A stretch of 50,380 bases of DNA from Sulfurimonas sp. SAG-AH-194-C20 (GTDB lineage: Bacteria; Campylobacterota; Campylobacteria; Campylobacterales; Sulfurimonadaceae). The stretch is taken from assembly GCF_029215975.1 (NCBI RefSeq), contig NZ_JAEMVD010000006.1, positions 1-50,380 of the forward strand, read 5' to 3'. Within the stretch, counting starts at the first letter, position 1, and the number at the start of each line of letters is the position of its first letter. This document shows positions 925-2,824 of the stretch, piece by piece. Under the pieces are notes generated by a model. It was not told where the DNA came from, made no database searches, and worked only from the letters and a program-made list of their open reading frames with translations. Position numbers and translations under genes: made by a program.

Positions 925-1572
925 TTAGAGATTATACAAGACATCGCAGATTGTGTCAATGTCATCATCTACTTTTAGGATTTCTATATCTTTGCTTGAA
1001 AAATATGGCTGACTTATAGTAGTAAAATCACCATCTTCTTCTCTTTGATTAAAGACCATCATCGCATCAATGTTCCTACTTTGAAGTGCTCCTAAAGAGA
1101 GCATACTATCATTAATGCATCCAAGTGCACAGTGTGTTACAAGAAGTCCTACTGCATTAAAAAATGGTATTAAATCTATCATCATAAAGTTTCCATCTAC
1201 TGGAACGAGTAGCCCGCCAGCCCCTTCTATTATAAGGATATCACACACTTTTTCTTGTTTGTCGATGGCATTGTTTAAAAGAGTAAAATCAAGTGCCTTT
1301 CCTTGCGAAGCGATAAAAGGAGCAGCAGGAAGTTCATAAGAGATAGGAACAACATCTTCTATAGTAAACTCTTTGCAAGCACCGTTGCACTCTTTGAGTT
1401 TTTTTAAAAGTAAGTCACCATCAGGATAAAGACCATCTTTTACACCTGTTTCAATGAGTTTAATAACCCCAACAGCTATACCCTTTGAAGCATAAGTCTC
1501 CATGAGCTTTAAAGTTGTGTATGTTTTACCAATGTCTGTATTTGTTGCAGTTACAAAGATTCTTTTTTTCAT
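925..1572 (-). CDS. bioD: Dethiobiotin synthetase
   Basis: BioD is the ATP-dependent carboxylase that closes the ureido ring of dethiobiotin from diaminopelargonate, the penultimate step of biotin synthesis. The N-terminus carries the family P-loop (TNTDIGKT, about residues 10-17), and the EGAGGLLVPV segment in the middle is the second conserved signature. At 215 residues it is a normal length. No other bio gene is near. No Shine-Dalgarno sequence precedes the ATG; instead a TATACT box ends exactly six bases before it, suggesting a leaderless transcript. pyrB follows closely. Confidence 0.93.
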   Translation of the reverse strand: MKKRIFVTATNTDIGKTYTTLKLMETYASKGIAVGVIKLIETGVKDGLYPDGDLLLKKLKECNGACKEFTIEDVVPISYELPAAPFIASQGKALDFTLLNNAIDKQEKVCDILIIEGAGGLLVPVDGNFMMIDLIPFFNAVGLLVTHCALGCINDSMLSLGALQSRNIDAMMVFNQREEDGDFTTISQPYFSSKDIEILKVDDDIDTICDVLYNL

Positions 1573-1584: not shown

Positions 1585-1658
1585 GCAATTTATAATTAAA
1601 AAAAAGAAAAATATCTATCTAGTGTAAAAACTTTGGATTTTTATTTATGGGTGTTAGA

Positions 1659-1768
1659 TTTGGATGTTTTTAGGAAGGAGCTTATGCGAGTGAGTGACTG
1701 AGTAAATCATCCAAAGACATCTGGCACTAAATGCCGATACCCCCGTCGCTAAAGCGAAAGTGGGGTAC
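1659..1768. repeat. Structured intergenic element, possible dispersed repeat
   Basis: This stretch lies between bioD and ilvC and is visibly more GC-rich than other spacers. It contains three nested or consecutive inverted repeats: TTTGGATG (1659-1666) with CATCCAAA (1708-1715), GGCA with TGCC (1723-1735, loop CTAAA), and TACCCC with GGGGTA (1738-1767), the last enclosing a TCGC-TAAA-GCGA hairpin. It sits immediately downstream of the ilvC stop codon. On the minus strand one frame is open through most of it but lacks a start. It may be a mobile repetitive element, a structured RNA tail of the ilvC message, or a remnant gene. No second copy was noticed in the window. Confidence 0.5.
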
Positions 1769-1783
1769 AAGAAATGAAAAATA

Positions 1784-2824
<1,041 letters not shown>

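Follow-up and report, generated by a model that had tools for sequence, protein, structure and literature searches.

Integron attC sites fold from the strand antisense to the gene and lie against a stop codon. The small dispersed repeats (SDRs) of cyanobacteria are very short hairpin elements located in the loops of structured RNAs and within other repeats. Mitochondrial hairpin and double-hairpin elements, also very short, occupy loops of structured RNAs and other repeats as well (PMC2800124). The palindromic elements of Rickettsia are dispersed, and many of them are inserted in frame in genes, where they encode a conserved peptide (PMC10969869); they are about 150 bp long and several are CGTC-tagged (PMC3733652). 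REPs of the GTAG and CGTC types, small palindromes too, frequently lie downstream of genes and in some cases within them, and have been reported in Sulfurovum NBC37-1 (PMC3733652).

We analysed a window of 50,380 nt (the term denotes this whole stretch of DNA) from Sulfurimonas sp. SAG-AH-194-C20, contig NZ_JAEMVD010000006.1; the contig belongs to a 1.63-Mb genome that is 66% complete. The spacer between ilvC, encoding ketol-acid reductoisomerase (1784..2806, minus strand; Pfam KARI_N/KARI_C and NCBIfam), and a bioD-like gene with an AAA_26 domain downstream on the same strand (925..1572, minus; Pfam) very likely holds two nested elements: a mobile 48-nt element, B, inside an older element, A, anchored at the stop codon. 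An earlier note made from the sequence alone had described 1659-1768 as one compact element with three inverted-repeat units. All three units are present, and the interval folds at -39.3 kcal/mol versus -24.2 +/- 3.2 in 200 dinucleotide shuffles (z -4.8, none equally stable); the TCGC-TAAA-GCGA hairpin described between TACCCC and GGGGTA arms is found at 1746-1757, and the open minus-strand frame also exists (1654..1770, 38 aa, with TTG as the only start). What does not hold is the single unit: the interval spans parts of two elements and leaves out the 5' arm of A (1635-1658) as well as its interrupted 3' arm (1768-1783).

BLAST of 1640-1783 against 60 relatives, a check proposed in the note, matched the repeat in 32 of them, and the query broke near its position 78. 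The halves matched separately, with some genomes carrying the first part only and others 78-130 only, often in several places. The query was split in this way because, as the reading of flanks indicated, the 48-nt B sits inserted in A, a second conserved element. B (1720..1767, plus strand; TCTGGCAC...GGGGTA; flank reading, covariation) is a dispersed repeat with two hairpins seen in both fold and covariation: hairpin 1, GGCA-CTAAA-TGCC, at 1723..1735 (plus), and hairpin 2 at 1738..1767 (plus), with arms TACCCCC (1738-1744) and GGGGTA (1762-1767) enclosing CGC-TAAA-GCG. A is a rod-shaped hairpin of about 107 nt, interrupted by B in the window. Its 5' arm, apical domain (GGAG-stem-GTGAC) and the first part of the 3' arm span 1635..1719 (plus strand; alignment, fold) and include the central helix TTTGGATG/CATCCAAA with inner loops and apical hairpin (1659..1716, plus; fold), the arms of which were located by inverted-repeat search at 1659-1666 and 1709-1716. 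The remaining 3' arm (CAAGAAATGAAAAATA, 1768..1783, plus strand) follows B, as defined by comparison with the B-less loci L014, L054, L055 and L039; the ilvC stop codon (1784-1786, minus strand) lies directly against it. Folding z for 1640-1783 is -4.9 on the plus strand and -2.7 on the minus strand, and in the predicted fold the outer stem is retained, with B as an additional branch. Insertion of B here would have split the 3' arm of A, the outer stem still being able to form.

The B copies read with their flanks have the 48-nt consensus TCTGGCACTAAATGCCGATACCCCCGTCGCTAAAGCGTAAGTGGGGTA. A MAFFT alignment of 18 copies, with the two-hairpin structure, gave the covariance model R1, whose match in the window is 1719-1770; 96.6% of cells at paired positions were paired and 10 of 14 pairs had changed on both sides, which was equalled in 0 of 500 shuffles. 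For A, 13 copies were aligned by MAFFT without structure after B had been cut out, and model R2 (match in the window, 1635-1739) was built; 23 of 39 pairs were doubly changed. With 107 distinct copies fitted to the model, covariation was seen at 35 of the 39 pairs, with 981 doubly changed cells versus 288 in shuffles. The covariance analysis that the earlier note had suggested thus gave compensatory changes in both elements, and the sequence is neither single-copy nor lacking in such changes, two of the observations named in the note as speaking against its proposal. At gathering score no Rfam family matched in the window or at A or B in six other loci, where the only Rfam match was RNase P, ~200 nt from a B copy; searches at gathering and loose thresholds together yielded nothing credible. 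No earlier account of B or A came up in a literature search conducted mostly outside subscription papers.

The suggestion that the locus contains a dispersed repeat is borne out for 1720-1767, by BLAST and by R1 matches across Sulfurimonas (45/135 genomes) and Sulfurovum (40/78 genomes). Matches occurred in these two genera and a few other genera of the order; in a class-wide sample B was present in only 4 of 68 genera. The source genome has two strong copies and one weak copy, and the same repeat is present in the record of Sulfurimonas sp. SAG-AH-194-L11. We take genus g60 to be Sulfurovum; a B copy in G573 (contig 168, 3409-3460) matches CACVAS010000168 of an uncultured Sulfurovum. As genomes carry few copies (1-11 each), B may be largely inactive. 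We examined 155 distinct copies with their flanks, most of which begin with TCTGG and end with GGTRY. The repeat had no match in the phage records searched; three IMG/VR stretches classed as viral (L130-L132) carry a B variant in which the second hairpin is longer (TACTAAACCTTAAAAGGTTTATGTAGTG). B may therefore perhaps be transferred by viruses. Among plasmids B was found on only one, from Sulfurovum mangrovi, in the intergenic region between glyQ and a Nif3-like gene.

Comparison of empty and filled sites showed how precisely B is inserted. At ilvC the empty sites were L014, L054 and L055 and the filled ones L038 and L150; L014 reads ...GAAGATGAGTG|CTAGAAATTAAAAA, while L038 reads ...GATGAGTG, then B (ACTGGCAC...GAGGGGTA), then CTAGAAATTAAAAA, a gain of 48 nt with no target duplication. 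Over ilvC and A-internal sites the gain was 48-49 nt, without the target-site duplication expected of a MITE. Within A, B was found in both orientations; in Sulfurovum copies of A (L171, L235) it is reversed and lies between GTAAGTG (or GTATGTG) and ACTGCAC. Other copies are intergenic, at hairpin apices or inside genes, and some are in the 23S-5S spacer (L036, from the source genome, and L040-L043), identified via the downstream 5S sequence. Flanks pairing at -10 kcal/mol or better were seen at 12 of 62 non-redundant sites, versus 2.9% for re-paired flanks (p 2e-7). Hairpin apices formed by the flanking sequence thus hold B more often than expected, an excess that may in part reflect selection against insertions elsewhere. 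B itself receives small palindromes, in loop 2 (L081, L046, L084, L185, L208, L216; also L205, L206, L196) and in loop 1 (L053, L217), such nested inserts being detectable solely in B copies still recognised by the model. One loop-2 palindrome was found again next to B in L037/L007, and the loop-1 insert in a different hairpin element at L440.

B was also found in frame within genes for GDP-L-fucose synthase, RmlD, RfbB, UGDH, GMP-PMI and an integron integrase. Its 48 nt make 16 codons, and the plus-strand peptide is LALNADTPVAKAKVG. The plus-strand frame was open in 16/16 coding copies versus 17/85 other copies of the same length, a contrast that is only supportive and partly circular because the choice of coding copies drew in part on open frames. 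UGDH with B has 406 residues versus 388-389 (a difference of 17-18 residues), and at the insertion site other genomes have different inserts. In the integrase (TIGR02249, E 3e-113, an assignment made for L138) the in-frame B is near the C-terminus, beside what we take to be the catalytic-tyrosine motif. Several Sulfurimonas genomes have such an integrase (L138, L047, L137 and L018, a minus-strand ORF); in L047, L137 and L018 the expected catalytic-tyrosine motif is altered. Hypervariable loops of UGDH (L048, L242-L270) and GDP-fucose synthase (L271-L300) gather many unrelated short in-frame inserts, B among them; these include RHSELDSES-type (CGTC-like) palindromes, and the UGDH gene of L251 has a separate CGTC-type repeat (CGTCATTCTGAACTTGATTCAGAATC).

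Element A has a different distribution. R2 detected it in 31 of 37 Sulfurovum genomes, with 1-9 copies each, some in tandem; strong matches in Sulfurimonas were mostly one per genome and, where examined, next to ilvC. In families f9, f11 and f14 the matches were weak, at 35-45 bits, and were discarded as probable chance. In L391, L403, L407, L397 and L406 tandem copies have the same orientation and are about 110-145 nt apart; in L150 and L020 the 5' arm is duplicated beside a complete A at ilvC. In the single-contig genomes G266, G307 and G107 strong A copies are on the minus strand in the first chromosome half and on the plus strand in the second, as expected if A follows leading-strand genes.

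The right-hand end of A is at most 5 nt from the stop codon of the adjoining gene in 75 of 96 copies, the gene being antisense to the structured strand of A. The adjoining genes are unrelated and number about ten: ilvC, rplS, fusA (EF-G), guaA, thiG and others, with rplS, guaA and thiG named from C-terminal sequences rather than by family search. Pairing between the two flanks of A averages -4.7 kcal/mol versus -1.2 in cross-gene shuffles, and at many sites the outer helix consists of the gene's last codons and stop codon; in the window's own A the outer helix from the flanks is weak. Of the 96 copies, 70 are closest to the copy at the same gene in another genome, and A is therefore old and mostly inherited.

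Three features lead us to assign the structure to the plus strand, antisense to the adjacent gene: its energy of folding, its wobble pairs and the G-A oppositions in its internal loops. Mean folds are -44.7 for the plus strand and -27.5 for the other, the plus strand being stronger in 94 of 96 copies; wobble pairs favour it as well (U-G at 24-186 in 69 copies, G-U at 59-147 in 86), and two internal loops have G-A facing G-A, which suits an RNA-like structure on this strand. Of the proposal that a structured RNA ends the ilvC message, then, a conserved structure adjoining the ilvC stop codon stands, but the structured strand appears to be antisense to ilvC.

At ilvC genes that lack A, the gene end is occupied by other hairpins. 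Where A is missing, L431-L441 show a second multi-hairpin element after ilvC (AATAGCGACGCA...TGCGTCGTTAC...CTCTTTTAGTTTTT), which has the apical GTCAC/CTCC motif of A. The frequent hairpin of L431 and its relatives has outer flanks as in A and a weak R2 score at the same place, which suggests that it could be a diverged relative of A.

B is, by observation, dispersed, patchy, precisely inserted and tolerated in genes in frame, and the best explanation is a small non-autonomous mobile palindromic element with two hairpins. A degraded gene between bioD and ilvC, another idea of the earlier note, has virtually no chance of being correct: in its favour is a single open minus frame, but 67 of the 85 other full-length B copies have the same frame (f0) open, Pfam gave no family match, and the sequence is dispersed and covarying; this candidate was rejected. 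A REP/REPIN identity for B, or an origin as the remnant end of an IS200/IS605-type element, with mobilisation by a Y1 (RAYT) transposase, is a minority possibility to be taken seriously, given its hairpins, its sites 3' of genes and inside them, its REP-like G-T pairs and the GTAG and CGTC REPs known in Sulfurovum NBC37-1 (PMC3733652). Its ends, however, are TCTGG/GGGGTA instead of GTAG or CGTC, its two hairpins are unlike each other instead of forming an inverted REP doublet, and its copy number is low. Spread independent of a dedicated enzyme, with copies entering hairpin loops through template switching or at the RNA level in the manner of mitochondrial hairpins, we consider a little less probable still; it would agree with the preference for hairpin apices, the lack of target duplication and the nesting of palindromes in loops, but no intermediates were seen and the constant 48-nt unit points to a defined reaction. 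On the preferred reading, a non-autonomous mobile element, B would move in folded form as a single DNA strand, with a candidate hairpin-recognising enzyme acting in trans, and would tend to enter the loops of other hairpins.

For A, mostly vertical in inheritance, the best-supported form is either an RNA from the antisense strand or a hairpin of single-stranded DNA, and it is in one of these forms that A would act at gene ends, if it acts at all. The main rival, an intrinsic or bidirectional transcription terminator that overlaps stop codons and was merely enlarged by B, we put at about one chance in a handful or slightly better. No U-run follows the stem itself immediately, but at many genes the outer flanks are A-rich and U-rich and the resulting outer helix includes the stop codon; other ilvC genes likewise end in hairpins. 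Yet the weaker fold of the mRNA-sense strand in nearly all copies and the wobble pairs and G-A loops conserved on the antisense strand argue against a terminator, as do the T-run at the 5' end and A-run at the 3' end of A (not the reverse), and the absence of the outer helix at the guaA and thiG copies. An attC-like single-strand recombination site would also fold from the antisense strand and adjoin stop codons, and an integron integrase is present in the genus; nonetheless this is improbable, as A has no constant R-box-like ends, its ends follow the last codons of the neighbouring gene, its neighbours are core genes and its copies are mostly vertical.

More tentatively, with rather less than even confidence, we propose an undescribed community of tiny loop-seeking hairpin elements, of which B, at 16 codons, passes through genes, together with an undescribed antisense-strand class represented by A. 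If this is true, hairpin elements of Sulfurimonas and Sulfurovum target hairpin loops, even those of one another; the 48-nt (16-codon) length lets B traverse genes; and A is anchored at core-gene stop codons, its outer helix being made of the gene's last codons. Given filled and empty sites and the apex preference, the movement of tiny palindromes becomes testable in culturable Sulfurimonas. The fixed and odd geometry of A, with its antisense strand and zero distance to stop codons, is hard to reconcile with a standard terminator.

In comparison with known systems, A resembles integron attC sites in the folding of the antisense strand and the position against the stop codon, and differs in the absence of constant end boxes (the R boxes RYYYAAC...GTTRRRY are not found at its ends), in its core-gene neighbours and in its mostly vertical inheritance. 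B shares with GTAG/CGTC REPs the small palindrome located downstream of genes or inside them, but has neither terminal tetranucleotide, most of 155 distinct copies having the TCTGG and GGTRY ends instead; with the tag and target duplication both absent, we do not class B as a REP or a MITE. Like Rickettsia palindromic elements, B is a dispersed palindrome inserted in genes in frame with a conserved peptide; unlike them it is 48 nt long, has two separate hairpins, is untagged and belongs to Campylobacterota, and so falls outside a family of about 150 bp confined to Rickettsia. With cyanobacterial SDRs and mitochondrial double-hairpin elements it has in common very short length, hairpin formation, dispersal and precise gain, whereas its lineages and sequences are different and in-frame coding insertions are prominent. 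By analogy, B seems to work like all three, Rickettsia palindromic elements, SDRs and double-hairpin elements, and to be of the same kind; it would give a clean example, from outside Rickettsia, of a very small mobile palindrome that is inserted in frame.
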